The translations under genes were made by a program, and so were the position numbers. Below, one piece after another: positions 8,776 to 61,222 of a stretch of DNA of 64,000 bases. How positions within the stretch are numbered: the stretch's first letter is position 1; each line of letters starts with the position of its first letter. Origin of the DNA: Catellatospora methionotrophica (GTDB lineage: Bacteria > Actinomycetota > Actinomycetes > Mycobacteriales > Micromonosporaceae); the NCBI RefSeq assembly GCF_011297335.1, contig NZ_JAAOTJ010000005.1:124001-188000 (forward strand), given 5' to 3'. The notes below the pieces were generated by a model. That model was not told where the DNA came from. It searched no databases and saw nothing but the letters and a program-made list of their open reading frames with translations.

Positions 8776-8838
8776 CGCAACTCTTAAAGAGTCGCGCCCA
8801 TAGGCACCTCCTGAGGCCGCGACTCTTTAAGAGTTGCG
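8776..8838. repeat. CTTAAAG palindromic element, copy 1 (bidirectional terminator candidate)
   Basis: Perfect 21-bp inverted repeat, arms 8776-8796 and 8818-8838, with a 21-nt loop. Each arm itself centres on a small palindrome, ACTCTTAAAGAGT. It sits between converging genes, 68 nt after the trhA-like stop and 61 nt from the sixA stop. The left flank is C-rich (CCCC and CCCCC runs); the right flank to the sixA stop is G-rich. Four more copies occur in the window. Confidence 0.9.
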
Positions 8839-8899
8839 GCAGGAACGGGCCGGCGCCGCGCGGGCCGCGCGCGGTGGTGGGGGGTGGGGGTGGGGAGGG

Positions 8900-9421
8900 T
8901 CAGGCGCGGGCGGTGTGGGCGGCTACGAGTTTGGCAGTGTCGGTGACGGGCCAGTCGGACTCTGGCTGGTGTACGGCGATGCCGCAGGTGCGCAGGCCGT
9001 CGGAGTCCACCTCGCCGCCGCCCGTGTCGAGCTGCTCGGACAGCTGGGAGATGGTCGGGTTGTGCCCGATGACGAGGACGTTGCGGAACTCCGGTTCCAC
9101 GGTCCGGATCAGGTCGAGCAGGTCGCCGGGCGCGCCGTCGTACAGCTCACGTTCGTAGCGGACCACCGGTGACCCCGCGCCGGCCAGCGCGACGGCGACC
9201 GAGTGCCAGGTCTGGCGGGTACGCCGAGCTGGCGAGCAGAGCACGAGATCGGGCACGTACCCGTGGTTGACCATCCAGGCCCCGGCGGCGGCGGCGTCAG
9301 CGTGGCCGCGGTCGGTGAGCGGGCGGTCGGTGTCGGACAAGCCGACCGGGCGGTCGGCCTTGGCGTGACGCAGCAGCACCAGAGTGCGTGGGCGCGTTGC
9401 GGCGCCGGTCAGCGGAGCCAT
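8900..9421 (-). CDS. sixA: histidine phosphatase family protein (SixA-like)
   Basis: 173 residues. The N-terminal LVLLRHAKA is the RHG/RHA catalytic motif of the phosphoglycerate-mutase-like superfamily, with the His as phospho-acceptor. LCSPARRTRQTW and VLVIGHNPT give the second Arg and the second catalytic His. Length and motif order match SixA, a phosphohistidine phosphatase. I chose the ATG at 9421, which gives MAPLTGAATRPRTL; the frame stays open further upstream but without a credible start. No operon partner is seen: the next gene, fadE5, is 181 nt upstream and separated by a hairpin. Confidence 0.88.
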   Translation of the reverse strand: MAPLTGAATRPRTLVLLRHAKADRPVGLSDTDRPLTDRGHADAAAAGAWMVNHGYVPDLVLCSPARRTRQTWHSVAVALAGAGSPVVRYERELYDGAPGDLLDLIRTVEPEFRNVLVIGHNPTISQLSEQLDTGGGEVDSDGLRTCGIAVHQPESDWPVTDTAKLVAAHTARA

Positions 9422-9517
9422 GTGCTCAGCTTGCCGCACGCGGCGCGGTTGCGCATCCCAACTTCGGCGATAACAGCCCGGCACGCGGCTGACGCCCCGC
9501 GCCCAGCGCTGGGACGG

Positions 9518-9551
9518 GAACGGCGCCCCCTCAGCCGAGGGGACGCCGTTC
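9518..9551 (-). terminator. hairpin terminator downstream of fadE5
   Basis: Inverted repeat GAACGGCGCCCCCT / AGGGGACGCCGTTC with one bulge and a 6-nt loop, about 52 nt past the fadE5 stop. Confidence 0.65.
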
Positions 9552-9602
9552 ACCTATTCGTGGGATGGGCGCGAGGTGTGGCCGGAGCCGCACCCCGTGG
9601 GG

Positions 9603-11438
9603 TCAGAAGGAGGCCTCGTCCAGGTCCATCGGGTCGAGCGTGGCCAGCTCGACGATGCGCCGGTCGGAGCCCAGGCGCGGCAGCACCTCGCGCGAGAAGA
9701 AACGCGCGGTGGCCACGACACCGTTGTAGAAGGCCTCGTCGCTGCCCGGCTCGCCGGACAGCTTGCGCAGCGCCACCTCGGCGCGGCGCAGCAGCAGCCA
9801 GCCGACGACCAGGTCGCCGATGGCCAGCAGCAGGCGGCGGGAGTGCAGGCCGACCTTGTACAGCGCGCGCGGGTCGTCGCCCTGCGACTCGGCCAGCCAG
9901 CCGGTGAAGGTGCCGAGCATGGCCTGTACGTCGCCGAGCGCGGCGGCGAGCGAGGCCCGCTCCTCCTTCAGCTGGCCGTTGCCGGCCTCGTTGGTCAGGA
10001 ACTCCTGGATCTCCCCGGCGACCGACATCAGGGCCCGGCCGTTGTCCCGTACGATCTTGCGGAACACCAGGTCGAGGCTCTGGATCGCGGTGGTGCCCTC
10101 GTACAGCGAATCGATCTTCGCGTCGCGGACGTACTGCTCCAGCGGGTAGTCCTGCAGGAAGCCCGAGCCGCCGAAGGTCTGCAGCGACTCGGAGCTGAGC
10201 AGCTCGGACGCGCGCTCGGAGCCGCAGCCCTTGACCAGCGGCAGCAGGAAGTCGTTGATCTTCTCGGCCCGCTTGGCGGCCTTCTCGTCACCGGCGGCCT
10301 TGGCCATGGCGACCCGGTCCTGCCAGTACGCCGTGTACGCGACCAGCGCCCGCAGGCCCTCGGCGTACGACTTCTGCAGCAGCAGCGAGCGGCGTACGTC
10401 CGGGTGCTGGGTGATGGCGACCCGCGGTGCGGTCTTGTCGGTCATCTTCAGCAGGTCGGCGCCCTGCACCCGCTCCTTGGCGTACGCCAGGGCGTTCAGG
10501 TAACCGGTCGACAGCGTCGCGATGGCCTTGGTGCCGACCATCATGCGGGCGTTCTCGATGATCAGGAACATCTGGCGGATGCCCTCGTGCACCTCGCCGA
10601 CGAGCCAGCCCTTGGCCGGAACGCCGTGCCCGCCGAAGGTGGTCTCGCAGGTCGTGGAGACCTTGATGCCCATCTTGTGCTCGACGTTGGTCACGAAGAC
10701 GCCGTTGCGCTCGCCCAGCTCGCCGCTCTCGGCGTCGAAGTGGAACTTCGGCACGACGAACAGCGACAGACCCTTGGTGCCCGGAGCGCCACCCTCGGGG
10801 CGGGCCAGCACGTAGTGAATGATGTTGTCCGACATGTCGTGCTCGGCCGAGGTGATGAAGCGCTTCACACCCTCGATGTGCCAGGAGCCGTCGTCCTGCT
10901 TGACCGCCTTGGTGCGGCCCGCGCCGACGTCGGAGCCCGCGTCGGGCTCGGTGAGCACCATCGTCGAGCCCCACTTGCGGTCGACGAACAGCTCCGCCCA
11001 CTTCTTCTGCTCGTCGGTGCCTTCGAGGAACAGCACGTGCGCGAACGACGGGCCCGAGCCGAACATCCAGACCGGCGCGTTCGAGCCGAGCACCAGCTCG
11101 GCGAACGCCCAGGTCAGGGTGCGCGGGGCGGAGCTGCCGCCGAGGGCGGGCGGCAGGTCCAGGCGCCAGAACTCGGAGTCCATCCAGGTCTTGAAGGACT
11201 GCTTGAAGCTCTCCGGCATGGCGACGGTGTAGTTCGCCGGGTCGTACACCGGCGGGTTGCGGTCGGCGTCGGCGTAGCTCGCGGCCAGGTCGACGCGCGC
11301 CATGCGGTCGATCTCGTGCAGCACGCTGCGCGCGGTGTCCGCGTCGATGTCGGCGAAGTGGCCCTCGCCGAAGGGCGTGTCGAAGACCTCGAACAGGTTG
11401 AACTCAAGATCACGCAAGTTGCTCTGGTAGTGGCTCAT
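9603..11438 (-). CDS. fadE5: acyl-CoA dehydrogenase FadE5
   Basis: 611 residues, the same length as mycobacterial FadE5. The protein starts [19 protein letters not shown] and keeps the FAD-binding stretch [20 protein letters not shown]. The catalytic base lies in [10 protein letters not shown] (Glu447). The C-terminal extension after the core dehydrogenase domain is typical of the FadE5 group, which oxidises a broad range of acyl-CoAs in the first step of beta-oxidation. Electrons go to ETF and then to a membrane acceptor; a likely acceptor gene, etfD, lies 19 kb away and shares its operator. A GGGCGGGAAGA ribosome-binding site precedes the ATG. It is monocistronic, with a hairpin downstream. 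Confidence 0.95.
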
Positions 11439-11462
11439 TCTTCCCGCCCTCAGCGCATTCAG

Positions 11463-11476
11463 TTACCGACCAGTAA
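11463..11476. promoter_or_regulatory. TTAC-N6-GTAA operator, fadE5 proximal site
   Basis: TTACCGACCAGTAA, 25 nt upstream of the fadE5 start. It has the inverted half-sites TTAC/GTAA separated by six bases, typical of a TetR-family operator, and overlaps the likely promoter. The same layout recurs 25 bp further upstream and before etfD at 30958-30971. Confidence 0.65.
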
Positions 11477-11487
11477 GTACGACTCTA

Positions 11488-11501
11488 TTACTCACGAGTA
11501 A
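11488..11501. promoter_or_regulatory. TTAC-N6-GTAA operator, fadE5 distal site
   Basis: TTACTCACGAGTAA, with an extended perfect inverted repeat TTACTC-AC-GAGTAA. It is 25 bp centre to centre from the proximal site, about two and a half helical turns. The regulator is not encoded next to it. Confidence 0.62.
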
Positions 11502-11603
11502 CCATCGGCAAGCAAACTCCCGACATCTCCCCACCCACACCAGGTGAAATCCCCCACACCCGCGCCTACCCGCTTAGCGCGCCCGTCGACTCGCTCCGCG
11601 GAT

Positions 11604-11670
11604 GAAGATCACTGTTTGTGGTCAAAAGGTGGGGTGTGGCCGCAGATCTTGACCGCAAACGGCGATCTTC
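11604..11670. repeat. long imperfect inverted repeat (22-bp arms) in the fadE5/44-aa ORF gap
   Basis: Arms 11604-11625 and 11649-11670 match at 19 of 22 positions (GAAGATC...GTTTG.GGTCAA and its complement), with a 23-nt loop. Read as + strand RNA, two of the three mismatches are G-U pairs, so the stem holds on that strand better than on the other. It lies 145 nt upstream of the 44-aa ORF. The rest of the 376-nt gap (11439-11814) holds the fadE5 operators and nothing else I can identify. Confidence 0.7.
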
Positions 11671-11814
11671 CCTCGCCAGCCGAACGGACATACTCCCCAT
11701 ACCGGACATGCGCAAGCGACCACGCCGCCGGAGCGCAACCATTCGGCAGCGGCGTCGTTCTTCCGGGTGACGCGCGGGCACCCTCGCCCCGCCCGCCACA
11801 GGGGAGGAAGAAAG

Positions 11815-13976: not shown

Positions 13977-13989
13977 TAAAGTCCACCGC

Positions 13990-14570: not shown

Positions 14571-14644
14571 GCGGGTGTAGTTCAATGGCAGAACATCAGC
14601 TTCCCAAGCTGACAGTGAGGGTTCGATTCCCTTCACCCGCTCCA
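14571..14644 (+). tRNA. tRNA-Gly (CCC)
   Basis: Acceptor stem GCGGGTG/CACCCGC with discriminator T and encoded CCA. The anticodon arm is TCAGC-TTCCCAA-GCTGA, giving anticodon CCC. The T arm carries GGTTCGATTCC. A hairpin terminator follows 8 nt later. Confidence 0.95.
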
Positions 14645-14651
14645 CGGAGAA

Positions 14652-19874: not shown

Positions 19875-19892
19875 TCGTCAAGGTGGTGATAA
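19875..19892. promoter_or_regulatory. operator candidate 2 in the SPFH/Nudix divergent promoter
   Basis: TCGTCAAGGTGGTGATAA matches site 1 at 13 of 18 positions and keeps TCGTCA and GATAA at the ends. It ends 5 nt before the chosen Nudix start, a position suited to autoregulation. Confidence 0.55.
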
Positions 19893-19897
19893 ATCAG

Positions 19898-20587
19898 ATG
19901 GCCGACTTTCCCAGCCCTATGGGCACAGCTTCCGTCACAGCCGATCTGGTCGTGCTGACGGTGCAGGACAACGAGTTGCGGGTCCTGCTGGTGCGCCGGG
20001 GCATCGAACCCCATCGGGGCGCGTGGGCGTTGCCCGGCGGCTTCGTGCTGGCCGACGAGGACCTCGACGCGGCCGCCGTACGCGAGCTGCGGGAGGAGAC
20101 CGGGCTGACCGCACCGGTCGGCCACCTGGAGCAGCTGGCCAGCTACGGGGCCCCCGGACGGGACCCGCGGGGGCGGGTGGTGACCGTGGCATACCTGGCA
20201 CTGCTGCCGCACCTGCCCGCCCCGGTCGCGGGCAGCGACGCCGAGGGCGCGGCCTGGGTGGCGCTACCCGTCGGGGAACTGGCCTTCGACCACGCGCGCA
20301 TCCTGGCCGACGGTGTCGAGCGGGCCCGCGCCAAGCTGGAGTACTCCCCGCTGGCGACCGCGTTCTGCCCGCCCGAGTTCACCATCACCGAACTACGCGA
20401 GGTCTACGAGACCGTCTGGGACGCCCGGCTCGACCCGCGCAACTTCCACCGCAAGGTGACCAGTACGCCCGGCTTCGTCGAGCCCGTGGGCCGCAGCGTC
20501 GCCGCCGACCGCGGCCGCCCCGCCCAACTCTTCCGCCGCGGCCCCACCCACCTCCTCCACCCCCCCATGCTCCGCCCCACCCCCTGA
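19898..20587 (+). CDS. NrtR-like regulator: Nudix domain with winged HTH
   Basis: 229 residues. The Nudix box is intact: GGFVLADEDLDAAAVRELREETGL (shown in full only because its Glu residues matter: RE-L-REET) at about residues 41-64. After about residue 150, FTITELREVYETVWDARLDPRNFHRKV is the winged-helix domain found in NrtR regulators, which bind ADP-ribose derivatives and control NAD genes. Whether the Nudix domain still hydrolyses cannot be told from sequence. A GTG 15 nt upstream is another possible start, but it lies within operator site 2. It is divergent from the SPFH/NAD-kinase-like operon, its likely target. Confidence 0.85.
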   Translation: MADFPSPMGTASVTADLVVLTVQDNELRVLLVRRGIEPHRGAWALPGGFVLADEDLDAAAVRELREETGLTAPVGHLEQLASYGAPGRDPRGRVVTVAYLALLPHLPAPVAGSDAEGAAWVALPVGELAFDHARILADGVERARAKLEYSPLATAFCPPEFTITELREVYETVWDARLDPRNFHRKVTSTPGFVEPVGRSVAADRGRPAQLFRRGPTHLLHPPMLRPTP

Positions 20588-20640
20588 CCACCCCCGCCCC
20601 ACCGCCCCACGGCCTCCGGCCTCCGGCCGCCGTCTTCTGC

Positions 20641-20703
20641 CGCAACTCTTAAAAAGTCGCGGCCTCAGAGGGTGTCTGAGGCCGCGACTTTTTAAGAGTT
20701 GCG
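20641..20703. repeat. CTTAAAG palindromic element, copy 2
   Basis: Perfect 29-bp inverted repeat, arms 20641-20669 and 20675-20703, with a 5-nt loop (GGGTG). It is the longest of the five stems and has CTTAAAAAG in place of CTTAAAGAG on the left arm, with the matching change on the right arm. It sits between the converging Nudix and NlpC/P60 genes, 53 nt and 57 nt from the two stops, with C-rich left and G-rich right flanks. Confidence 0.92.
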
Positions 20704-20760
20704 CGAGGGGTGAGGGCCGGGGCGGGCCGGGGCGGGCTGGGTCGGGCCTCGGGGGGTGGG

Positions 20761-21768
20761 TTAGGCGGGGCGGCCGAAGCTGTGGACGGGGGCTGCGTCC
20801 ATGCGGCGCATGGTGATGGGTTTGCCGGTTTGGGAGGCGTGGACGATCCAGCCGTTGCCGGCGTACATGCCGACGTGGTGCAGGTCGCTGTAGTAGAAGA
20901 CGAGGTCGCCGGGTCGGAGGTCGGCGCGGCTGACGGACTTGACGGCGGCGCGCTGTGCCCTGGCGTTGTGGGGCAGCGTGATCCCGGCCTTCAGCCAGGC
21001 GGCCTTGGTCAGGCCGGAGCAGTCGAACGTGTTCGGGCCCTCGTCGCCCCAGCCGTACATCTTGCCGATCTGGCTGCACGCGAACGAGATGACCTTGCCG
21101 ACCGCGCCGCCGGGGTACGTCGTCGGGCAGGGCACCGGGCGCAGCTCGCCGATGCCGCCGTTGCTGGCGTACGCCTGCAGGCGCAGCTTGTTCAGCTTCG
21201 TGATCTCCGCCTGGATGCCCTTGGACCGCTCCGCCTGCAAAGCCTCGGTCTTGGCCAGCTCGGCGATCGTCGCGTCCAGTGGCTGCTTCACCGCGTCCAG
21301 CGCCGCCTTCGCGGTCAGAGTGTCGGCGATGCGCTCCTTCTTGTCATGCGCGAGCTGGTCGAGCACGAGCAGCCGCTTGGCCATCACGCCCGCGTCGCCG
21401 CTCTGCAGGAACGCGTTGACCTGAGCCACGGTGCCGCCCCGGTAGAGCTGGTCGGCGAGCACGCCGATGCGGGCCCTGGTGACCTGCACCTTCTGCTCCA
21501 GCGGCGTGAGCTGCGCGGTCAGCTCATCGGCCTTCTTGCGCTGCTTGGCCAGCTTGAGCTTGGTCGCGTTGTGCTCTTCGATGACCGGCTCGAGCTTGAC
21601 CCACTGCTCGTCGATCTGCTTCTCGATCTCGGCCGGGGTCGGGGCGGCGTGGGCCTGCGCCGCCGGTGCGAGCAGGGCGAGGAGGACGACCGCGACCGTC
21701 AGGACGCCGCGGCGTAGGCGTGGTGCGCTGGGGAGCCCCGCGTCGTGGGGCCGATTATGGCTACACAC
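20761..21768 (-). CDS. secreted NlpC/P60 peptidoglycan endopeptidase (RipA-like), paralogue A
   Basis: 335 residues. A signal peptide ends at AQAHAAP (about residue 42). Residues 45-190 form a long coiled coil of paired helices (KLEPVIEEHNATKLKLAKQRKKAD). The C-terminal NlpC/P60 domain carries FDCSGLTKAAW (catalytic Cys), LHHVGMY (catalytic His) and IVHAS. It should cut peptidoglycan stem peptides during division or growth, the coiled coil probably acting as an inhibitory or FtsX-type docking element. The GTG start has TAACGT 8 nt upstream and TTGCGT at 18 nt from that, so a leaderless mRNA is plausible. Confidence 0.92.
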   Translation of the reverse strand: MCSHNRPHDAGLPSAPRLRRGVLTVAVVLLALLAPAAQAHAAPTPAEIEKQIDEQWVKLEPVIEEHNATKLKLAKQRKKADELTAQLTPLEQKVQVTRARIGVLADQLYRGGTVAQVNAFLQSGDAGVMAKRLLVLDQLAHDKKERIADTLTAKAALDAVKQPLDATIAELAKTEALQAERSKGIQAEITKLNKLRLQAYASNGGIGELRPVPCPTTYPGGAVGKVISFACSQIGKMYGWGDEGPNTFDCSGLTKAAWLKAGITLPHNARAQRAAVKSVSRADLRPGDLVFYYSDLHHVGMYAGNGWIVHASQTGKPITMRRMDAAPVHSFGRPA

Positions 21769-27176: not shown

Positions 27177-28473
27177 CGTCGTCGCCCGCCAGCCGGACCA
27201 GGCGAACCTGCTCCACCCGGTGCCGGTCCATCTCCACCACGGTGAACTCCCAGTCGTTGGCGACCAGGGCGTCGCCCACCACCGGGATCCGGCCCAGCTC
27301 CGCCATCAGGTATCCGCCCAGCGTCTCGTACGGCCCCTCGGGCAGCCGGAACCCGGTCTGCTCGTCCAGCTCGTCCTCGCGCAGCATGCCGTCGACCAGC
27401 CAGGTCCGCACGCCGCCGGGAACGGTCACCTCGATCGATCCCGACTCCTCCTCCTCGGCGGTGTCGTGCTCGTCGGCGATCTCCCCGACCAGCTCCTCGA
27501 CCAGGTCCTCGATGGTGACCACACCGTCGGTGCCGCCGTACTCGTCGACGACGATGGCGAAGTCGGAGCGGCCCGCCCGCAGCGCGGCGACCACCTTGTC
27601 CAGGTCGAGCGAGCCCGGCACCAGCACCGGTTCGCGGGCCACGGCGGCGACCGTGGTCAGCGAGCGGCGAGCGGGCGGCACGGCGAGCGCGTCGGTGACC
27701 GACACGACGCCGGTGACGGTGTCCAGCGTCTGCTCGTACACCGGAAAGCGGCTGTGCCCGGTCTCCCGCGCGGCCTCGAACAGCTCCGCGACGGTGGCCG
27801 ACCCGGCCAGGCCCACCACGTCGATGCGCGGGGTCATCGCCTCGGCCGCGTGCTTGTCGCTGAAGCGCACCGTGCGCTGCAGCAGCAGGGCGGTGTCGGT
27901 GGGCAGCGCCCCGGCCTGCGCCGAGATCGCGGCCAGCAGGCCCAGCTCCTCGGGAGAGCGGGCGCTGGCCAGCTCCTCCTGGGGCTCGATGCCCATCCGG
28001 CGGACCAGCCAGTTGGCGGTGCCGTTGAGAATGAAGATCATCGGCTTGAACGTGCGGGAGAAGACCCGCATCGGCCCGGCCGTACGCAGCGCCACCGGCA
28101 TCGGCCGGGACAGTGCCGCGTTCTTGGGCACCAGCTCGCCGAACAGCATCGAGAACAGGGTCGCGATGCCCAGCGAGATCACGTGGCTCAGCCCCGCGGA
28201 CACGCCCAGCGGCTCGACGAGCGGCCGCAGCGCGGGCTCGGCCAGGTAACCGGTGAGCAGCGCGGTCAGCGTGATGCCGAGCTGCGCTCCGGAGAGCTGG
28301 AACGACAGCTCCCGCAGTGCGCGGCGCACCGTACGCGCCGGGCGCTCGCCCCGGTCGGCCCGGGTGTCGATCTCCGCCCGGTCGACCGTGACCAGCGCGA
28401 ACTCGGCGGCCACGAAGAAGGCTGTGCCGACCGTGAGCAGCACGAAGAACAGAATGGGCAGGATTGCCGACAA
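27169..28473 (-). CDS. CNNM/CBS/CorC_HlyC membrane protein, long form
   Basis: 434 residues. CNNM membrane domain with AFFVAAEFALVTVDRAEID and GELVPKNAALSRP, a CBS pair (EAMTPRIDVVGL; DFAIVVDEYGGTDGVVTIEDLVEELVG, read as segments), and a complete C-terminal CorC_HlyC domain (EGPYETLGGYLMAELGRIPVVGD). It is probably a divalent-metal transporter or transport regulator. The start is uncertain: TTG at 28473 is the first standard start in frame, yet the best ribosome-binding site (GAGGTGATC) lies too far upstream for it, and an in-frame stop sits 24 nt before. It is the first gene of the two-gene operon. Confidence 0.88.
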   Translation of the reverse strand: MSAILPILFFVLLTVGTAFFVAAEFALVTVDRAEIDTRADRGERPARTVRRALRELSFQLSGAQLGITLTALLTGYLAEPALRPLVEPLGVSAGLSHVISLGIATLFSMLFGELVPKNAALSRPMPVALRTAGPMRVFSRTFKPMIFILNGTANWLVRRMGIEPQEELASARSPEELGLLAAISAQAGALPTDTALLLQRTVRFSDKHAAEAMTPRIDVVGLAGSATVAELFEAARETGHSRFPVYEQTLDTVTGVVSVTDALAVPPARRSLTTVAAVAREPVLVPGSLDLDKVVAALRAGRSDFAIVVDEYGGTDGVVTIEDLVEELVGEIADEHDTAEEEESGSIEVTVPGGVRTWLVDGMLREDELDEQTGFRLPEGPYETLGGYLMAELGRIPVVGDALVANDWEFTVVEMDRHRVEQVRLVRLAGDDDE

Positions 28474-28597
28474 CGCGTCGATGACGAGATCACCTCAGCG
28501 CCCGATTCTGCCAGAACCCGTCACCCCACCCGCCTTCGCGGGCACGCCCACCCCCACCCACCTGCCGCAACCGCCCTCGCGGCCCAAGCCCCCGCCA

Positions 28598-28656
28598 CAA
28601 CTCTTAAAGAGTCGCGCCCTCAGCACGTGGCCGAGGGCGCGAGTCTTTAAGAGTCG
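28598..28656. repeat. CTTAAAG palindromic element, copy 3
   Basis: Arms 28598-28621 and 28633-28656 match at 22 of 24 positions, with an 11-nt loop ending GTGGCC. It lies 75 nt past the etfD stop, between two genes on the same strand, so here it serves only one gene end. The right arm reads CGCGAGTCTTTAAGAG, a change shared only with copy 5. Flanks are C-rich on the left and G-rich on the right. Confidence 0.88.
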
Positions 28657-28731
28657 CGGCCCGGGTGGCGCGCGTCGCGCGTCGCGCGGCGGGCGGGCCG
28701 CGCGGTGGGCGGATGGGTGGGGGTCTGGGGG

Positions 28732-30894
28732 TCAGGGGGTGGGTTTGACGGAGCGGAGGAGGACGGTGGCTACGTCGATGACCTCGACGTCTTCCTCGCC
28801 CTTGGAGCGGACGCCGTCGGTGATCATCGTGGAGCAGAAGGGGCAGCCGACGGCGATCGTCTTCGCGCCGGTGGCCAGGGCCTCCTCGGTGCGCTCGACG
28901 TTGATCCGCTTGCCGATGCGCTCCTCCATCCACATACGCGCGCCACCGGCGCCGCAGCAGAACGAGCGCTCCTCGCGGCGGCCCATCTCCAGGATGCCGG
29001 TGCCGCCCCCGGCGGACGTGGTGGTGCCCGCGCCGATGGCCGCGCCGAGCACCTCGCGCGGCGGGGTGAACACGCGGTTGTGACGGCCCAGGAAGCACGG
29101 GTCGTGGTAGGTCAGGCCGCCGTCGACGGGTGCGACCGGGGTGAGCTTGCCGGTCTTGACCAGGTGGGCCAGCAGCTCGGTGTGGTGCACCACCTCGACC
29201 TCCAGCCCCAGCTCCTTGTACTCGTTGCCGAGGGTGTTGAAGCAGTGCGGGCAGGTCGCGACGATCTTCAGCGCGCCGGACTCCTTGATCGTCTCGACGT
29301 TCTGCTGGGCGAGCATCTGGTAGACGAACTCGTTGCCGATCCGGCGGGCCGGGTCACCGGTGCAGGTCTCGTTGTTGCCGAGGATCGCGAAGTCGACCCC
29401 GGCCTCGTTGAGCAGCGTCGCGACGGCGCGGGTGGTCTTCTTCGCCTTGTCCTCGAACGCCCCCGCGCAGCCGACCCAGAACAGGTACTCGAAGCTCTCG
29501 GTCTCGCCGACCCGCGGCACCGGGAAGTCCAGGCCCTTGGTCCAGTCCTCGCGGGTGTTGGGCGGCGCGCCCCACGGGTTGCCCTTGTTCTCCAGGTTGC
29601 GCAGCATCGCGCCGGCCTCCGACGGGAAGCTCGACTCGATCATCACCTGGTAGCGGCGCATGTCGACGATGTGGTCGACGTGCTCGATGTCTACCGGGCA
29701 CTGCTCCACGCAGGCACCGCACATGGTGCAGGACCAGAGCGCGTCCGGGTCGATGATGCCCAGCTCGGACGCACCGCCGATGAGCGGGCGCTCGGCTTCG
29801 GCCAGGGCGAGCACGTTGACGCCGGCCAGCTGCTCGGCGGTGCCCTTCTCCTCGCCGGACAGGTCCTTGCCGCCACCGGCCAGCAGGTAGGGGGCCTTGG
29901 CGTACGCGTGGTCGCGCAGCGACAGCACGATCAGCTTCGGCGACAGCGGCTTGCCGGTGTTCCAGGCGGGGCACTGCGACTGGCAGCGGCCGCACTCGGT
30001 GCAGGTGGAAAAGTCCAGCAGGCCCTTCCAGCCGAAGTGCTCGACCTGGGAGACGCCGAAGGTGTCCTTCTCCGGGTCGGCCTCTTCGAGGTCGATCGGG
30101 GCACCGTTGGAGGTCATCGGCTTGAGCGCGCCGAGCGCGGGAGCGCCGTCGGCGTTGCGCTTGAAGTAGATGTTGAAGAAGGCCAGGAAGCGGTGCCAGG
30201 CCACGCCCATGGTGGGGTTCAGGCCGATGGTGATCGCCCAGCCCATCGACACGACGATCTTCACCAGGGCGGTGATCGTGATCGCGGTCAGCGAGGCGGG
30301 CAGGATCGCGCCGAGGGCGTGCGAGAGCGGCGTGGCCCAGGCCGGGTGGTGGAACAGGCCGGCCGACACCTTGAACCCGCGGATCAGGAAACCGAGGACC
30401 AGCACGGCCAGGATGACGTACTCGACGAAGAACGCCTGCCACATCGTCGACCCGGCGAAGCGCGAGCGCGAGGTGCTCGACGGCAGCTGGCGCAGCCGGA
30501 TCACGATCAGCGTGACGATCGCCGGGATGCCGAGGATGCCGATCCACTCGGTCACGAACGCGAACACGTCCCAGCCGCCGACGATCGGCAGCTCCCACGC
30601 GGGGTTGACGACCTCGAAGTAGGCGCCGGCCACCAGGGTCGACAGCACGATGAAGCCGATCATCACCAGCCAGTGCGCCGCGCCGACGACGGACCACTTG
30701 AGCATCCTCGTGTGGCCGAAGGTCTCGGTGAGCATGTTCTTCCACCGGGCGGCCCGCTGACCGGAGCGGGTGGGATCGGCCTGGCCCAGCCTGATCACGG
30801 CGAGGATCTGCCGCACCGCCCGCACGACCAGCCATACCGCGACTGCCGTCACGGCGACCGCGATGACCGTGCTGACGATCTGTACGCCGCCCAT
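28732..30894 (-). CDS. etfD: membrane Fe-S oxidoreductase, EtfD-like (Rv0338c type)
   Basis: 720 residues from an ATG with GGGAGG 7 nt upstream. Six or so membrane helices fill residues 1-260 and could bind haem b (NarI-like). Two [4Fe-4S] motifs follow at about residues 297 (CTECGRCQSQCP) and 389 (CTMCGACVEQCP). Two CCG-type cysteine-rich domains of the heterodisulfide reductase kind come after (CPHCFNTLGNEY; SFCCGAGGARMW). Layout and phrases match mycobacterial EtfD, thought to pass electrons from ETF to menaquinone in beta-oxidation. It carries the same TTAC-N6-GTAA operator as fadE5, which supports this role. Confidence 0.9.
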   Translation of the reverse strand: MGGVQIVSTVIAVAVTAVAVWLVVRAVRQILAVIRLGQADPTRSGQRAARWKNMLTETFGHTRMLKWSVVGAAHWLVMIGFIVLSTLVAGAYFEVVNPAWELPIVGGWDVFAFVTEWIGILGIPAIVTLIVIRLRQLPSSTSRSRFAGSTMWQAFFVEYVILAVLVLGFLIRGFKVSAGLFHHPAWATPLSHALGAILPASLTAITITALVKIVVSMGWAITIGLNPTMGVAWHRFLAFFNIYFKRNADGAPALGALKPMTSNGAPIDLEEADPEKDTFGVSQVEHFGWKGLLDFSTCTECGRCQSQCPAWNTGKPLSPKLIVLSLRDHAYAKAPYLLAGGGKDLSGEEKGTAEQLAGVNVLALAEAERPLIGGASELGIIDPDALWSCTMCGACVEQCPVDIEHVDHIVDMRRYQVMIESSFPSEAGAMLRNLENKGNPWGAPPNTREDWTKGLDFPVPRVGETESFEYLFWVGCAGAFEDKAKKTTRAVATLLNEAGVDFAILGNNETCTGDPARRIGNEFVYQMLAQQNVETIKESGALKIVATCPHCFNTLGNEYKELGLEVEVVHHTELLAHLVKTGKLTPVAPVDGGLTYHDPCFLGRHNRVFTPPREVLGAAIGAGTTTSAGGGTGILEMGRREERSFCCGAGGARMWMEERIGKRINVERTEEALATGAKTIAVGCPFCSTMITDGVRSKGEEDVEVIDVATVLLRSVKPTP

Positions 30895-43329: not shown

Positions 43330-43415
43330 GGGGATGTGGCGGAATGGCAGACGCGCACGGTTCAGGTCCGTGTGTCCGAAAGGACGTGGGGGTTCAACTC
43401 CCCCCATCCCCACCA
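43330..43415 (+). tRNA. tRNA-Leu (CAG)
   Basis: Acceptor GGGGATG/CATCCCC with discriminator A and encoded CCA. The anticodon arm is CACGG-TTCAGGT-CCGTG, anticodon CAG. A long variable arm (TGTCCGAAAGGAC) confirms class II. A tRNA-Leu beside fhaA is also found in mycobacteria. Confidence 0.96.
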
Positions 43416-45631: not shown

Positions 45632-46696
45632 GTGAGTGTCGCGTTGGTGACCGGTTCGGCCGGTCTGATCGGTTCCGAGGCAGCCCGCCACTTCGCCGGC
45701 CTGGGTATGCACGTCGTCGGGCTCGACAACGACATGCGCAAGTACTTCTTCGGCGAGGACGGCTCGACCGCCTGGAGCCTGGTGAACCTCACCAGCAAGC
45801 TCGGCGACTCGTACACGCACTACGACGTCGACATCCGCGACCGCGACGTGCTCAAGAAGATCTTCGAGCGGTACGGCCGGGACATCTCGCTCGTGATCCA
45901 CACCGCGGCCCAGCCCAGCCACGACTGGGCGGCCAAGGAGCCGTTCACCGACTTCGACGTCAACGCCGTCGGCACCCTGAACGTGCTGGAGTACACCCGC
46001 CAGCACTCCCCCGACGCGGCCTTCATCTTCTGCTCGACGAACAAGGTCTACGGCGACACCCCGAACCGACTGCCGCTGATCGAGCAGGAGACCCGGTACG
46101 AGATCGCCGAGGACCACCAGTTCGCCGACGGCATCACCGAAGAGATGACGATCGACAACAGCATGCACTCGATCTTCGGCGTCTCCAAGGTCGCCGCGGA
46201 CGTGGCGGTGCAGGAGTACGGCCGCTACTTCGGCATGAAGACCGCCTCCTTCCGCGGCGGCACCCTGACCGGCCCCGCCCACTCCGCCGCCGAACTGCAC
46301 GGCTTCCTGGCGTACCTGATGCGCTGCGTGATGGAGGGCCGGACCTACAACCTGTTCGGCTACAAGGGCAAGATGGTCCGCGACGCGATCCACTCGCACG
46401 ACGTGCTCACCGCGTTCGAGGCGTTCTACCGCAACCCGCGCTCCGGCGAGGTCTACAACCTCGGCGGCGGCCGCTTCTCGAACACCTCCCACCTGGAGGC
46501 CTTCGCCGTCGCCGAGAAGATCGCGGGCAAGGAAGCCAAGGTCAACTACGTGGAGCAGGCCCGCATGGGCGACCACCAGTGGTACGTCAGCGACATGGCC
46601 AAGTTCCAGGCGCACTACCCGGACTGGCGGATGACCTACGACGTGCCCGCTATCCTCAACGAGATCTACGAGGCCAACGCCGACAAGTGGATGTGA
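45632..46696 (+). CDS. NAD-dependent epimerase/dehydratase, CDP-paratose 2-epimerase-like
   Basis: 354 residues. The Rossmann motif at the N-terminus is [12 protein letters not shown]. The catalytic region lies in [15 protein letters not shown] and a Ser-x-x-K-type phrase ([15 protein letters not shown]) replaces the usual YxxxK. The order and phrases ([28 protein letters not shown]) are those of the CDP-paratose/tyvelose 2-epimerase group. The substrate here is not necessarily a CDP-sugar. The gene is followed after 32 nt by a WecG/TagA-type transferase, so both may build one glycan. Confidence 0.85.
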
Positions 46697-46728
46697 CCCC
46701 CATCGGCGCGCGATCCCCGAGGAACGTC

Positions 46729-47547
46729 ATGACGACGACGCTGAACAGCGGCAGCAAGCGCAACGTGCTCGGCGTCCTCGTCGACGCCACCGACTACGCC
46801 GACGCCACCGAACGGATCATCCGCGCGGCGACCGACGGGCGGCCGTACGCGGTCACCGCGCTCGCGGTGCACGGCGTGATGGAGGGCGTCGCCGATGGCA
46901 CGCTCGGCGCGCAGCTCAACAGCTTCGACCTGATCACCCCCGACGGTCAGCCGGTGCGCTGGGCGCTCAACCTGCTGCACGGCGCGGGCCTGCGCGACCG
47001 GGTGTACGGCCCGGAGCTCACCCTGCGGGTGCTGGGCCGCGCCGCCGAGCAGGGCCTGCCGGTGTACCTCTACGGCTCCACCCAGCCCGTGCTGGACCTG
47101 CTGATCCCGGCGCTGATCGCGAAGTACCCGGCGCTGAAGATCGCCGGGAGCGAGCCGTCGAAGTTCCGTGGCGTCGAGCCCGGCGAGCCCGAGCAGATCG
47201 CGGCGCGCATCGCCGACTCCGGCGCGCGGCTGGTGCTGGTCGGCCTCGGCTGCCCGCGCCAGGAGAAGTTCGCCTACGCGATGCGGCCGTACCTGGAGAT
47301 GCCGCTGCTGGCGGTCGGGGCGGCGTTCGACTACCACGCCGGTGGGCTACGCAAGCCGCCCGCGTGGATGCAGCGCCACGCCCTGGAGTGGCTGTGGCGG
47401 CTGGGCCTGGAGCCCAAGCGCCTGTGGCGCCGCTACCTGATCCTCAACCCGAAGTACCTGGCCCGCCTCACCGCCCAGAAGACCCGCCTCTGGCGCGCCA
47501 CCCCGACGACCCCGGCCACCGACTCCCCGTCGTCCTTCGCCGTCTGA
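46729..47547 (+). CDS. WecG/TagA/CpsF family glycosyltransferase
   Basis: 272 residues from an ATG with GAGGAA 5 nt upstream. The family core is present: LITPDGQPVRWALNLL, YLYGSTQPVLDLL, LVLVGLGCPRQEKFAY and AVGAAFDYHAGGLRKPP with the WMQRHALEWLWRL helix. Members transfer ManNAc-type or glucuronic sugars to lipid-linked acceptors in teichoic acid or capsule synthesis. The C-terminal tail (about 40 residues) is basic and may bind the membrane, as in TagA. Probably co-transcribed with the epimerase gene. The fourth CTTAAAG element follows its 3' end. Confidence 0.9.
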   Translation: MTTTLNSGSKRNVLGVLVDATDYADATERIIRAATDGRPYAVTALAVHGVMEGVADGTLGAQLNSFDLITPDGQPVRWALNLLHGAGLRDRVYGPELTLRVLGRAAEQGLPVYLYGSTQPVLDLLIPALIAKYPALKIAGSEPSKFRGVEPGEPEQIAARIADSGARLVLVGLGCPRQEKFAYAMRPYLEMPLLAVGAAFDYHAGGLRKPPAWMQRHALEWLWRLGLEPKRLWRRYLILNPKYLARLTAQKTRLWRATPTTPATDSPSSFAV

Positions 47548-47625
47548 CACCCACCCGCCCTCCGAACCTCCCACCAGCCCAGCCCAGCCGGCCGGGCGGC
47601 CGGGCGGCCGGGCCTCCCCACCTGC

Positions 47626-47688
47626 CGCAACTCTTAAAGAGTCGCGGCTTCGGGGGGAGGCCGATGCCGCGACTCTTTAAGAGTTGCG
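47626..47688. repeat. CTTAAAG palindromic element, copy 4
   Basis: Perfect 23-bp inverted repeat, arms 47626-47648 and 47666-47688, extended by four more pairs after one mismatch. It sits between the converging WecG-type gene and the 112-aa gene, 78 nt and 46 nt from the stops. The right flank has GGGGTGGGGGTGGGGGTGGG, a clear G-quadruplex motif. Confidence 0.92.
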
Positions 47689-47734
47689 CGGGGTGGGGGT
47701 GGGGGTGGGGCGTGGTCGTGGCGGGCTGGGGGGG

Positions 47735-48239: not shown

Positions 48240-49013
48240 ATGGCCGCTGAACCAGCGTCCACACCATTGCCATCTCAGGTCACGCCGGCGCAGCTCATCG
48301 GCGAGATCAGCCGGCTCGTACGGCAACTGCCCTGTCCGCACTGCGGTCAGGACGACGCCGGCTCCTCGCGCGCCCACTATCAGGCGCTGGTCCCGGCAGC
48401 CCGGGAACCTTACGACGACGTCGCGCCGCTCGACCCGCTGGACGAGATCGGCGACGAGGAACGCTGGCTGTGGCGGCTGGTCGAGGAGGCCGAGCGCGCC
48501 GCCGAGGCCGCGCCGCCCGGTCCGGACCCACGGCAGGTCGCCCTCGCCGAGCAGCGCTGCCAGGAGGCGTACGAGGCCGAGCAGAAGGTCCAGACGCGCA
48601 TCCACGCGACGATCACCGCGCTCGCCCAGCCGTCGTCGTGGCTGCGGCCCCGGCACCGGGCAGCGCTCGCCCGGCACCTGCGCGAAGACCGGGCCGCCGC
48701 GGTGCTCACCGCGATCCAGCGCGGCCGCATCGAGGAGATCCGTGGGCGGCTGCGTGCCGTGGCCCATCGCCGGGCCGACTACCTGGAGGCGAATCGGACC
48801 ACGCTGGAGGCCGGGCGCAACGCGCGGGTGGAGCTGACCAGGGTGCTCGACGACCTGATCGACCGGTACGCCCGGATGGCGCAGCCGCCCGCCTGGTTCA
48901 AGTTCGGGCTGGACTATCCGCCGGAGCCCGGCACCCGCCGCGAGTGGCTGCAGCATGCCCGGGAGACGATGATCGAGCGGCGGCGGGCGAACCTGCACCG
49001 GGTGCTGCTGTGA
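48240..49013 (+). CDS. hypothetical helical protein with CPHC motif, 257 aa
   Basis: The ATG at 48240 follows GGGGGA at 6-nt spacing; TTG and GTG starts further upstream (48213, 48222) would add a second Cys pair (CFVC). The product has RQLPCPHCGQDD near residue 32, followed by mainly charged helices with many Arg, Glu and Ala, suggesting a coiled-coil or helical-bundle protein. No catalytic motif is recognised. The lone CPHC could bind metal only together with another site. A terminator hairpin directly follows the stop. Confidence 0.7.
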   Translation: MAAEPASTPLPSQVTPAQLIGEISRLVRQLPCPHCGQDDAGSSRAHYQALVPAAREPYDDVAPLDPLDEIGDEERWLWRLVEEAERAAEAAPPGPDPRQVALAEQRCQEAYEAEQKVQTRIHATITALAQPSSWLRPRHRAALARHLREDRAAAVLTAIQRGRIEEIRGRLRAVAHRRADYLEANRTTLEAGRNARVELTRVLDDLIDRYARMAQPPAWFKFGLDYPPEPGTRREWLQHARETMIERRRANLHRVLL

Positions 49014-49018
49014 ACGAA

Positions 49019-49057
49019 GGACCCCCTTCAGGCCACGGGTGGCACGGAAGGGGGTCC
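49019..49057 (+). terminator. hairpin terminator
   Basis: Perfect 11-bp inverted repeat (GGACCCCCTTC and its complement) with a 17-nt loop, 5 nt after the stop of the 257-aa gene. Confidence 0.75.
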
Positions 49058-49102
49058 CCGCGTAAGAGTGAGCCAGTACCGTCGTCGGGTGCGGGGGTCG
49101 AC

Positions 49103-57497: not shown

Positions 57498-57654
57498 GAG
57501 CCCTCCCCGACGCACGGTGACCAAACGAACCCTCAGAGTACGGTTCCTGGGCGACAGTCGTATCGGGTGGTCGTCCCGATTGGCACACCCGGTGTCCCAC
57601 TCTGCGGGAAACGAAGGGCAACAAATGTGCCATCTCTCCATATACGATGCGGAA

Positions 57655-58125: not shown

Positions 58126-58406
58126 CGACCGCGGACGGCGGCCTGCTGCTGCCGCTGCGGCAGAACCGGCGGCAGAACTGCCGAGGTCCTGCCAGAAAGG
58201 ACGGTTAAAGCCCCGAATCGGGTGAACCGGGCTGCTAGCGTCATGGCCCTGTGGTGGACGGCCACGCCGACCAGGTTGTCGGCGGTCCAGCACGGGGGTT
58301 GCATCGGCGCGGGCGGAGACGGCGGGGGGCGCGGTTCGCTACGGCGAGCCGCGGAGGGACATCATCCGTCGGGGGGCCGCCCGCGCCGAACCCTGCTCCG
58401 GCGCGG

Positions 58407-60860
58407 TCAGAGGTGGCTGAGCAGTTCCAGGGCCCGCGGCGTGAGCGAGATGCCTGTGCTGTCGCGCAGCTCGTAGAGCCGGGTCACCACCGCGGCCGGC
58501 TCGTCGCTGGTCGCGGCCAGCCCGACGAGCGCCTCCATCGTGTCCCGCCGGTCGCTGAGTCCGCTGGTCAGCCGCGCCGCCGCCGCGAACCACGAGGCCG
58601 CGAGCGTACGGTGTCCCCGCTGCCAGGCCACCGTCGCCTCGATCATCGCGCAGTACCAGTCCTCCTCGGGCTCCTCCGCGCCGGACACGTCCACTCCGGA
58701 ACCGGTCCCCTCCAGCAGCATCGCCCGGATGTCGGACAGCGTCTTCTCCGCCTCCTCCAGCCGGTCGCCCTGCGCGTACGCCAGCCCCACCACGCCCACC
58801 AGGCGACGGCGCTCACCCGGATTGCCGACCTCGGCCAGCATCTCCACGGCCTGCTGCCCGACCCGCACCGCCTCGTCGTAACGGCCGTCCAGGCGCAGCA
58901 CCTCGGCCAGATTGGCCCTGGCCAGGGCACGCAGCTTGTGTTCCCCGGACCGCGCCGACAGCCGGTCGACCGCGGCCAGCCGCCGCTGGGCCGCGGCCAG
59001 GTCGGCCTCGCGCAGGTCGTGCCAGATCAGGTTGTGCTGGGCCACCGCCATGTCGTCGACCCGCCCGGTGCGCGTGGCCAGCGCCAGGGTCGCCTCCCCG
59101 TGGCGGCGGGCGTCGTCGTACTCCCCCGCGCTCTGGTGCACGACCTGCAGCACGCCACGGGCCGCCAGCTCCCCGGTCACGTCCCCTACCAGGAGGAACG
59201 CCGCCAGTGCGGTCTCGCCCCTGGCCAGTTCGGCGCGGCCCGCGCCGTGTTCGGCGGCGAGCTGCACCACGCCCAGGTTCGCCCAGGCGCGCAGGGCCGG
59301 GTCCGCGTCGGCGGTACGCGGATCGTCGAGCAGCCGCAGCAGCCACTGCCTGCCCTCCTGGTCCCGCCCGCGAAAGCGCCACCAGCGGGGCAACTTCGAG
59401 GCCAGGCACAGCGCGGTGTGCGGATCGTGCTCGGCGGCGTGGGCCAGGGCCGCCCACAGGTCACTGGCCACGTCGTCGAGCCGGGCGACGGCGGCGGCCA
59501 GCGTCGAGCCCATCATCGTCGGGGCGGTGCGGGCCGCGAACCGGGCGAAGACCACACCGTGCTGCCGCCGTGCCCCGGCCAGCTCCCCGGCGACCTCGGC
59601 CTGCTCGGTGGCGTACTCCTTCACGACGTCCAGCAGCACGAACCGGAACGCGCCCGAGCCACGCACCTGCACCAGTCCCAGTTCGACCAGGCGCTCCAGC
59701 ACCGGCACCACGTCGACCTGCGTGCCGAGCAGATCCTCGGCCAGTTCGACGGACCAGCGGTAGCCGAACACGGCCAGCCGCCGCAGCGCCTCCCGCTGCG
59801 CGGGCTCCAGCAGGCGATAGCTGGCCGTCACGACGTCCCGCAGTGTCACCACCGGCGGCGAGGCGGCGACGTCGGCGCTGCCCAGCTCCAGCAGCCGGTT
59901 GCCGTACCGGGCGAGCATCTCGGCCGGGTCCAGCACCCGTCCCCGGGCCGCTGCCAGCTCGATGGCCAGTGGCAGCCCACCGAGCCTGCGTACCAGCGTG
60001 ACCAGCGCGTCCACCTCGACGTCGGCGGGCGAGCGGCGCACCTGCCGCCACCGGGCCAGAAACAGCGCGCTCGCCGGGTGCCGCTCGGCCTCTGCCAGCG
60101 ACCGCGTCCCGGCGGGCGGCAGCGCCAGCGGTCCCAGCGGCCAGACCTGCTCGCCTGCCGGGCCCAGCGGAGCCCGCGCCGAGGCCAGCACCCGCAACGC
60201 GGGCGCGATCGCGAGCAGTTCGGCCAGCACGGTCCGGGAGGCGTCCGGCGAGCGGTCCACCGCGTCCAACATGAGCAGCACCGGCTGCTCCAGCCGGGCG
60301 GGCAGGTCGGCCGGGCGGCTCACCTCCAGCACCGCGCAGACCACGTCGCGCACATCGCTGGCGGTGTCCCCCGCGGCGACGCTGATCGCGCGCACTCCCG
60401 CCGGGAACCGCGGCTGCGCCTGGAACGCCACGTTGATCGCGAGCGCGCTCTTGCCCACCCCGGCCAGGCCCACCAGCGTGGTGAGGCCGGGCTGACCGGT
60501 CAGGTGCTCGATCAGGGCGGCGGCCTCGTCGGCCCGGCCGTACAACTCTGGCGGCGCGGGCAGGGTGAACGCGGGCCGGGCGGGCGGCGCGGACACCTGG
60601 CCACGGGCGGCGAGGTGGAACTCCGCGGCCGCGTCACCGGTCAGCGCCAGCGCGCCGACCAGCAGCTCCACCGTGCTGCGCTGCGGGCGGGCGGCGCGTC
60701 CGTGCTCCAGGTCGCGGACGGTGCGCACGCCGAGCCCGGCGCGCGCGGCGAGCTCCGACTGGGTCAGCCGCGCGGTGTCCCGGTGCGCGCGAAGGAGCGC
60801 GCTGAAGGAGGCCGCCGACGCGTCGGCGGCCTCTACGGAAGCCGGGTGACCTGGGACCAT
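58407..60860 (-). CDS. XRE-HTH/NB-ARC/TPR regulator (AfsR/LuxR-like STAND protein)
   Basis: 817 residues. XRE helix-turn-helix at about 20-75 (LLRAHRDTARLTQSELAARAGL). The P-loop NTPase has Walker A GLAGVGKSAL (131-140), a Walker B-like VLLMLDAVDRS and GLPLAIELAAAR. A winged-helix segment follows. The C-terminal half has about seven TPR-like repeats (GRAELARGETALAAFLLVGD; YDEAVRVGQQAVEMLAEVGN). STAND proteins of this kind act as ligand-gated transcription switches, often for secondary metabolism. The start is the ATG at 60860; a TTG 66 nt upstream (MSAPKSRRS) is possible. No target cluster is adjacent. Confidence 0.9.
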   Translation of the reverse strand: MVPGHPASVEAADASAASFSALLRAHRDTARLTQSELAARAGLGVRTVRDLEHGRAARPQRSTVELLVGALALTGDAAAEFHLAARGQVSAPPARPAFTLPAPPELYGRADEAAALIEHLTGQPGLTTLVGLAGVGKSALAINVAFQAQPRFPAGVRAISVAAGDTASDVRDVVCAVLEVSRPADLPARLEQPVLLMLDAVDRSPDASRTVLAELLAIAPALRVLASARAPLGPAGEQVWPLGPLALPPAGTRSLAEAERHPASALFLARWRQVRRSPADVEVDALVTLVRRLGGLPLAIELAAARGRVLDPAEMLARYGNRLLELGSADVAASPPVVTLRDVVTASYRLLEPAQREALRRLAVFGYRWSVELAEDLLGTQVDVVPVLERLVELGLVQVRGSGAFRFVLLDVVKEYATEQAEVAGELAGARRQHGVVFARFAARTAPTMMGSTLAAAVARLDDVASDLWAALAHAAEHDPHTALCLASKLPRWWRFRGRDQEGRQWLLRLLDDPRTADADPALRAWANLGVVQLAAEHGAGRAELARGETALAAFLLVGDVTGELAARGVLQVVHQSAGEYDDARRHGEATLALATRTGRVDDMAVAQHNLIWHDLREADLAAAQRRLAAVDRLSARSGEHKLRALARANLAEVLRLDGRYDEAVRVGQQAVEMLAEVGNPGERRRLVGVVGLAYAQGDRLEEAEKTLSDIRAMLLEGTGSGVDVSGAEEPEEDWYCAMIEATVAWQRGHRTLAASWFAAAARLTSGLSDRRDTMEALVGLAATSDEPAAVVTRLYELRDSTGISLTPRALELLSHL

Positions 60861-61159
60861 GGCCGCAAAGACTACGCACCCGAAACCGAACGTGGGAGTC
60901 GAGCGTCTACTTTTTGGCGCACTCAACGGACATGACCGGTATCACAGTGCAACCGTCCGGACGGCCTGTCGGGCCTGCTCCCACCCGCCGCCCGCCCGAC
61001 CCGGCGGTCCGGCTCGCGCCCGCACCCGCTGTCCACCTGCCGACAAACTGCAACCCACCCACGCCACATCGAGTGTCTTCAGATACCGGACCGTCACGGG
61101 GCGGCCCGGCCACCCCCACCCACCCCACCCGCCCACCACCCGCCACCCACCACCCGCCG
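60861..61159. other. intergenic region upstream of the STAND regulator
   Basis: It should hold the promoter of the gene at 58407-60860. Its left 100 nt are more AT-rich and include TTGCACTGTGATACC on the minus strand. Its right part, from about 61100, is a CCCACCC-type C-rich tract that belongs to the fifth CTTAAAG element. I see no ORF that I would call. Confidence 0.5.
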
Positions 61160-61222
61160 CGCAACTCTTAAAGAGTCGCGCCCTCAACCAGTGGCCGAGG
61201 GCGCGAGTCTTTAAGAGTTGCG
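61160..61222. repeat. CTTAAAG palindromic element, copy 5
   Basis: Arms 61160-61185 and 61197-61222 match at 25 of 26 positions, with an 11-nt loop ending GTGGCC. The single mismatch (CGCGAGTC in place of CGCGACTC) and the loop end are shared with copy 3. It lies 25 nt past the stop of the binding-lipoprotein gene. The flanks are C-rich on the left and G-rich on the right (GGGAAGGGGCGGGTGGGTGGG-like, with quadruplex potential). Confidence 0.9.

Follow-up and report, generated by a model that had tools for sequence, protein, structure and literature searches.

The window analysed here, 64 kb of the 8.39-Mb genome of Catellatospora methionotrophica (56 contigs, named G000 below), contains five copies of a 63-bp inverted repeat, each located shortly after the stop codon of a gene. 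A search for the core CTCTTWAAGAG with up to one mismatch has revealed 10 matches in the window, two per copy, when 0.09 were expected, and none of 100 shuffled sequences reached 10. The initial annotation of this DNA had placed the five copies correctly; it had also described the same sequence in all of them, which holds for its presence but not for the arms of copies 2, 3 and 5, where variants are found. The inverted-repeat arms measure 29-55 nt with a complementarity of 78-100%, and the RNA of the five copies is predicted to fold on both strands with energies of -49 to -59 kcal/mol (z -6.4 to -13.2). From copy 1 to copy 5, the distances to the stops are 68/61, 53/57, 73, 78/46 and 25 nt, in agreement with the 25-80 nt claimed initially (25-78 nt as measured). 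The copies, to which no strand is assigned, are the following:

8776..8838: copy 1, two palindromes with centres at 8786 and 8828, convergent genes on both sides
20641..20703: copy 2, perfect 29-bp arms with the AAAAAG/CTTTTT variant in both arms, convergent genes
28596..28658: copy 3, right arm changed
47626..47688: copy 4, centres at 47636 and 47678, convergent genes
61160..61222: copy 5, right arm changed, synteny break or misjoin at this place

Copies 3 and 5 each have a minus-strand gene on both sides and not a convergent pair. Copy 3 is 3' of the minus-strand gene at 28732, past its stop codon, and ahead of the minus-strand gene starting at 28473, and copy 5 is 25 nt past the stop of the minus-strand gene 61248-62450. 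Genes bordering the copies include:

8027..8707, plus strand: HlyIII-related gene (PF03006), flanking copy 1
8900..9379, minus strand: histidine phosphatase gene (PF00300), the partner at copy 1
19883..20587, plus strand: NUDIX/NrtR gene, the partner at copy 2
20761..21768, minus strand: NlpC/P60 gene (PF00877), flanking copy 2
46693..47547, plus strand: WecG/TagA glycosyltransferase gene (PF03808), flanking copy 4
61248..62450, minus strand: periplasmic binding protein gene (PF13458), ended by copy 5

No Rfam match above the gathering score was found at the copies, and a known RNA family was therefore rejected as the identity of the element. The sole Rfam matches in the window were two tRNA genes (14571-14641 and 43330-43412).

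Anatomy of the element

Since each arm is itself palindromic, the element is composed of two palindromes in inverted order (consensus CAACTCTTnAAGAGTyGCG) with their centres 42 bp apart, and between them there is a 23-bp spacer of variable sequence and fixed length. The consensus of 147 collected copies reads CCCC-TGCCGCAACTCTTRAAGAGTYGCGSC, a variable middle and then the inverse. When the gap was left free from 16 to 46, exact two-arm matches spanned 59 bp in 40/43 cases and 58 bp in 3/43, and a further count gave 68/73 at one spacing. Among 177 copies with a span of 56 to 62 allowed, many of which came from fixed-spacing searches, 165 were at 59, 11 at 58 and 1 at 61. The outer half CAACTCTT is near invariant and the middle of the element varies freely: between orthologues, in copies that had been found by their arms, changes affected 57 of 1472 aligned positions in CAACTCTT and 556 of 2115 in the spacer.

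Some copies carry corresponding changes in their two arms (AAAAAG/CTTTTT in copy 2 and at 1801254 and 3358550 of the Catellatospora genome G002, GACT in others), which indicates that pairing also matters in them. In copies between codirectional genes, the changes in the upstream versus the downstream arm were 34/43 inside, 3/2 in the core and 56/71 outside (significance not computed), and a direction-dependent conservation of the arms was rejected on these counts.

Distribution, placement and fate at gene ends

A genome-wide search with the two-arm pattern at fixed spacing and up to 3 mismatches yielded 106 copies in G000, 77 in G002 and none in the controls. One arm with up to 2 mismatches matched 346 times in G000, and the reversed pattern gave no match. 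The exact palindrome CAACTCTTNAAGAGTYG is present in 7 of 354 genomes of the family, which are 6 of the 11 Catellatospora genomes (carriers G000, G002, G003, G005, G006 and G010; non-carriers G001, G004, G007, G008 and G009) and G019, a genome of another Micromonosporaceae genus with 581 forward matches. Looser single-arm matches (up to 2 mismatches) were detected in the non-carriers G001 (5) and G007 (10), and once each in G026 and G046. In a collection of genome contigs (84,980 species by its description) the two-arm pattern was found in 43 stretches, all from four Catellatospora species, and several of these stretches have both flanks in common with G000 and G002 loci. A plasmid origin was rejected because copy 1 had no match in a plasmid search. 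The single palindrome matched 65 stretches of viral contigs (no control run), a number judged to be near chance from the information content of the palindrome. No title concerning this element was found among the matches listed from the open-access literature.

The word is shared by two genera, Catellatospora and that of G019, with a differing arrangement of the palindrome: in G019 the spacing varies between 30 and 59 bp, and 29/45 clusters hold just one palindrome. In the G019 tiles L240-L259 the CAACTCTT palindrome is often included, singly or at variable spacing, in 41-bp palindromes ending in CCAAGATC/GATCTTGG.

In G002, on a contig of 8.9 Mb where dnaA is found at 4.20 Mb, the complete set of 29 copies with up to one mismatch lies at 1.27-7.68 Mb, and none of these best-matching copies is located at the outer contig ends; copies with two mismatches reach 5.55 Mb among the matches listed. 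A depletion near the origin, suspected from the contig ends, was dropped once dnaA had been placed.

The 147 copies (65 from G000, 41 from named species, 37 from G002 and 4 others) were found by sequence and not by position. With genes called by a simple codon-usage program of our own, which limits the placement classes, 69 copies are convergent, 60 codirectional, 2 divergent, 1 inside an open reading frame and 15 at a contig edge. Background pairs of neighbouring genes in the longer loci were 64 convergent, 215 codirectional and 59 divergent, and the comparison by Fisher's test revealed an excess of convergent copies (p = 2e-12) and a deficit of divergent ones (p = 3.6e-7). The initial annotation had regarded copies inside genes or far from stops as contrary to its proposal, and the outcome favoured the proposal: 1 of the 132 classifiable copies is inside a called open reading frame, itself weakly scoring, and the median distance from copy to stop is 40.5 nt. 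Most codirectional copies (54/60) are closer to the upstream stop. When gene pairs were counted along contiguous DNA, the element was present at 5/47 convergent, 3/157 codirectional and 0/48 divergent pairs in two element-bearing stretches of G002, at 0/18, 0/53 and 0/17, respectively, in two G002 stretches near contig ends, and at 3/12, 2/35 and 0/11 in the window. The 400 kb of contiguous G002 tiles, mostly picked for the presence of copies, and the window together contain 0/76 divergent pairs with the element.

A C-rich left flank and a G-rich right flank had been described in the initial annotation, and this composition holds family-wide, above the controls on both sides, so that the composite picture is right for this family. 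Around convergent copies, the intergenic flank read toward the element has C 0.64/G 0.22, versus 0.46/0.27 in element-free convergent gaps. Around codirectional copies the values are C 0.65/G 0.21 on the side of the 3' untranslated region (controls 0.37/0.34) and C 0.55/G 0.21 on the side of the next gene (controls 0.36/0.31). The C-rich, G-poor upstream RNA of Rho-dependent terminators is thereby matched in composition, and the copies also have the GC-rich stem-loop at gene ends of intrinsic terminators. In the printed copies of G019, inspected by eye, no consistent C-rich tract was seen. The C-rich, G-poor approach tracts of the window, on the plus strand, are:

8708..8775, plus strand: copy 1, mirror G-rich tract at 8839-8899
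20588..20640, plus strand: copy 2, mirror G-rich tract at 20704-20760
28541..28595, plus strand: copy 3, mirror G-rich tract at 28659-28731
47548..47625, plus strand: copy 4, mirror G-rich tract at 47689-47734
61105..61159, plus strand: copy 5, mirror G-rich tract at 61223-61247

For four of the five window sites (1, 2, 4 and 5), the corresponding gene end was retrieved in eleven Catellatospora genomes. The element is kept in 6, 5, 4 and 4 of the 6 carriers at the four sites, which is 15/20 without G000; the 20 cases of the five other carriers comprise 15 present (including site 5 of G005, at a contig edge, where one arm is seen), 2 decayed and 3 replaced or absent. At site 5 of G002 and G003 the outer arms have decayed and the inner stem is kept. 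The flanks are widely different between most carriers, those of G002 and G010 being still alike at site 1. In the five non-carriers, the element was found at 0 of the four sites. CAGTTTC doublets are present instead at site 1 of G004 and G009 and at site 2 of G004, G008 and G009, an ACTTGCC repeat at site 1 of G001 and G007, and GGAAGGGC-type hairpins at site 4 of G004, G008 and G009. Other states in the non-carriers are plain hairpins, abutting genes (site 2 of G001 and G007) or nothing clear (site 1 of G008). Given the unrelated hairpins at these sites, the function looks like one open to hairpins of different kinds.

Both flanks are homologous in 100 orthologous pairs; in these the spacer is clearly in the same orientation in 27 (15 loci), clearly inverted in 9 (6 loci), ambiguous in 56 and different in length in 8. 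Since short spacers between inverted repeats can flip via a hairpin or cruciform, such a structure may arise in the DNA of living cells. Near-identical spacers were also found within one genome at loci with unlike flanks (L095/L154 of G002, 0/23 differences; L028/L126 of G000, 1/23), which suggests that copies, and not just sites, multiply.

Copy 5 coincides with a synteny break. All of the relatives spanning the site (9/9) continue from the gene 61248-62450 into other DNA, with 90-98% similarity to one contig end of G000, that of C32 (L132), and this contig stops at an element core identical to copy 5; the DNA on the left of copy 5 in the window has no match in the nine relatives. The break reflects either a genomic rearrangement at the element or an assembly join made through the hairpin, and what lies to the left of copy 5 is uncertain for this reason. 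The C32 copy, counted above among the contig-edge copies, and copy 5 may be one element. The retention of copy 5 on the gene side is not affected by the break. By our own reading, at least 16 contig ends of G000 lie within about 500 bases of a copy, probably because the hairpins stop sequencing. Many contigs (e.g. C9, C12, C32, C45 and C56) end at or near a copy, and this suggests that the assembly of G000 was broken by element hairpins.

The element as a probable transcript end and competing explanations

The placement at gene ends, the symmetry, the C-rich approach and the interchange with unrelated hairpins are best read as signs of a bidirectional transcript end. The element is interpreted as a family resembling the REPINs (doublets of repetitive extragenic palindromes, REPs, that form hairpins), apparently independent of RAYTs (REP-associated tyrosine transposases) and retained at gene 3' ends as bidirectional transcript-end hairpins, with a probability of about 0.52. 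The family would have multiplied within a group of six Catellatospora genomes, through a spreading machinery that does not look like a RAYT, and is retained at gene 3' ends. RNA polymerase coming from either side would meet the hairpin (about -47 kcal/mol on average) after a C-rich stretch, and would most likely be halted in both directions, making the 3' end of the transcript. From the base composition of the tracts, Rho assistance is plausible. The bidirectional terminator proposed in the initial annotation is partly supported: placement, symmetry and C-rich approach fit it, and the sequence is under more constraint than a hairpin would require, given the near-invariant CAACTCTT, the fixed spacing and a middle not kept base-paired. 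The alternative given there, a REP-like element settled at gene ends, is equally supported by the REP-doublet anatomy and is compatible with termination.

Several observations weigh against the transcript-end interpretation. On inspection of the sequence, none of the five hairpins leads into a U-run, a short ACTCTTY tract only being present after the inner stem, and a simple terminator scan of copies 1, 4 and 5 reported none. The invariant word and the fixed spacing exceed what a terminator needs. Covariation between the arms is weak and partly species-structured, being clear at positions 5 and 8 only, and the inner stem has -15.6 kcal/mol, versus -14.7 with halves swapped between copies (p = 0.10); selection for inner-stem pairing was not supported by this swapping, and the middle is not kept base-paired. 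The element occupies only 5/47 of the convergent pairs in the element-bearing G002 stretches and 3/12 of those in the window. In G019, the 45 clusters of the palindrome are 20 convergent, 18 codirectional, 5 divergent, 1 inside a gene and 1 at an edge, and the palindrome is less strictly at gene ends than the Catellatospora copies. The missing U-run, the invariant word and the fixed pitch argue for something more than a plain intrinsic terminator.

Among known systems, REPINs are the closest in anatomy. According to passages of PMC3116915, they have inverted conserved ends and a less conserved spacer whose length is of consequence. The Catellatospora element shares with the REPINs of Pseudomonas, as described there, the short palindrome in many extragenic copies and the doublet of two highly conserved inverted ends around a less conserved spacer of set length. 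It differs in its C-rich approach tracts and its retention at orthologous gene ends, and also in that the 63-bp element lacks a Y1 transposase (RAYT) in G006 and G019 or near its copies, and a GTAG or CGTC tag. No RAYT (Y1 transposase, PF01797) was found in G006 or G019 by a search that could miss a distant one. Y1 frames of 150 residues are present in G000 (three), G003 (one) and G007 (one), G002 and G005 have one with a stop and G010 a partial one, and no palindrome was seen closer than about 1.5 kb to the nine Y1 matches. A RAYT-driven REPIN was rejected because the Y1 genes do not track with the elements and the nine Y1 loci are without the palindrome. The tag, as defined in the REP literature, is absent from the foot of the palindrome, which reads CTGCCGC in the inspected consensus. 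An associated RAYT is a defining feature, was tested for and was not found, and the element is therefore named REPIN-like and not REPIN. Catellatospora and Micromonospora are unmentioned in the main text of a 2025 REP survey (PMC12306157), by a term search.

REPs, according to passages of PMC3733652, lie chiefly between convergent and unidirectional genes and mostly downstream of coding regions. The element resembles REPs and bacterial interspersed mosaic elements in this placement, as far as those passages describe it, and differs from them in its sequence, its AT-centred palindrome and its doublet fixed at 42 bp. Like bidirectional intrinsic terminators, on which Ju et al. are said to have worked in 2019, it is a hairpin between convergent genes that is symmetrical on both strands; unlike them it has no U-run, and its sequence is common to about a hundred copies. 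In Neisseria, inverted DNA-uptake sequences act as terminators, a short conserved word standing at gene ends in two inverted copies. The element has this same design, but its copies are doublets at gene ends with 1/132 inside a called open reading frame.

A purely self-spreading REPIN-like population, multiplied by an enzyme other than RAYT, landing anywhere and surviving only where it is least harmful, with termination as an incidental effect, is less probable than the transcript-end hairpin and still deserves consideration. Its REPIN anatomy, the near-identical spacers at loci with unlike flanks of one genome and the confinement to 7/354 genomes of the family are consistent with it, and ordinary REPs show the same placement bias on their own in the passages cited above. 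Against it stand the retention of the element at orthologous gene ends, where the outer arms hardly vary even as most flanks turn over, the lack of a Y1 transposase in G006 and G019, and the absence of the palindrome near the nine Y1 matches elsewhere. Mobile DNA tends to favour outer regions, and the absence of the 29 best G002 copies from the outer contig ends also speaks against it.

The near-invariant outer half, the free middle and the little covariation are more easily reconciled with a word recognised at a set spacing than with a hairpin maintained by pairing alone. These features, with the middle not kept paired, would also be expected of a docking site in which two palindromic operators on the same helix face, four turns apart, are cooperatively bound at gene ends by a sequence-specific DNA-binding protein that blocks RNA polymerase on both sides or manages supercoils between convergent genes. 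The 42-bp pitch, which recurs as 41-42 bp in the unrelated CAGTTTC, GCTTTGC and TTTCC-type palindromes, agrees with this proposal. We consider it rather unlikely, as the G019 palindrome is spaced from 30 to 59 bp and single in 29/45 clusters, the matched changes in both arms (AAAAAG/CTTTTT) keep pairing yet spoil each palindrome, and no candidate protein was found. Less probable again is an element of RNA stability or processing, with the transcript ending further on and the hairpin protecting it or being cut by RNase III. The long stem that either strand would place at the end of its transcript would suit such a role, and mRNA stabilisation is among those proposed for REPs in parts of that literature; the invariant word, the fixed spacer length and the excess at convergent pairs would be left unexplained.

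A REPIN-like population independent of RAYT would mean that such repeats can spread by a second route. The ends of transcription in high-GC actinomycetes, in which clear U-tracts are scarce, are poorly settled, and sequence-tagged gene ends in a soil genus would offer a direct test.

Related palindrome families and other hairpins

A scan for palindrome pairs that uses no given word has revealed pairs at 41-42 bp in the G002 tiles (5/7), the window (3/4), the sister-group loci (1/2) and G019 (12/35), the G002 and G019 tiles being mostly chosen for element content; no pairs were obtained in shuffled sequences. The CAGTTTC doublets of Catellatospora, which stand at the same gene ends in relatives, have the same design as the element with a pitch of 41 bp (16/16 pairs). 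Their palindrome is unrelated to that of the element and was found in all 11 Catellatospora genomes searched and in 0 of 30 other genomes; their 18 clusters are 10 convergent, 7 codirectional and 1 inside a gene. In G019, GCTTTGC pairs (8/8) and TTTCC-type spacings (9/10) are at 41-42 bp. Loose GCTTTGC clusters of this genome are inside genes in 12/25 cases, and the ones displayed are single matches in which 3 mismatches at most were allowed. TTTCC-type palindromes also form triple arrays with pitches of 42 and 41 bp at L241 10745-10828 and L248 7257-7340 of G019.

In 504 kb of six other genomes (G013, G066, G020, G027, G016 and G033) 3 palindrome pairs were found, none at 41-42 bp, and 60 kb of G048, from another family, contained 1 pair, not at this distance. 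There were also none at 41-42 bp in 100 kb each of the Catellatospora genomes G009 and G007, G009 having two pairs at 31. A geometry of 41-42 bp general to Micromonosporaceae was rejected on the samples from other genera.

It is tentatively proposed, with more doubt than confidence, that Catellatospora and one other Micromonosporaceae genus have a class of doublets, largely at gene ends, in which the word switches between families and a pitch of 41-42 bp, four helical turns, is preserved. Such a class would imply an undescribed protein family of switchable word specificity and fixed geometry, whose members would either spread the doublets without RAYT or bind them and stop RNA polymerase both ways. 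The pitch common to unrelated palindrome families points to a protein not yet named.

Other repeated hairpins were observed in the same DNA. A long hairpin AAGGGCACCTTC...GAAGGTGCCC is repeated in several convergent gaps of G002 (L260 4118, L260 11114, L273 3474 and L274 17329), and this kind is also present at site 4 of G004 and G008 (L288 and L290). Another hairpin at gene ends, ATCTAGATGA.TTGTGGTCG and its inverse, is repeated at L260 4118 and L271 16299 of G002. A palindrome pair ACGAGCCnGCCTCGT is located at 2495 and 2552 of the window, 57 bp apart and within the called gene 1569-3929, and at 2390 and 2444 of L404 of G007, 54 bp apart. Finally, a hairpin AAGGACCCCCTTC...GGAAGGGGGTCC occupies convergent gaps in both the window (49013-49102) and G002 (L266 4017-4122).

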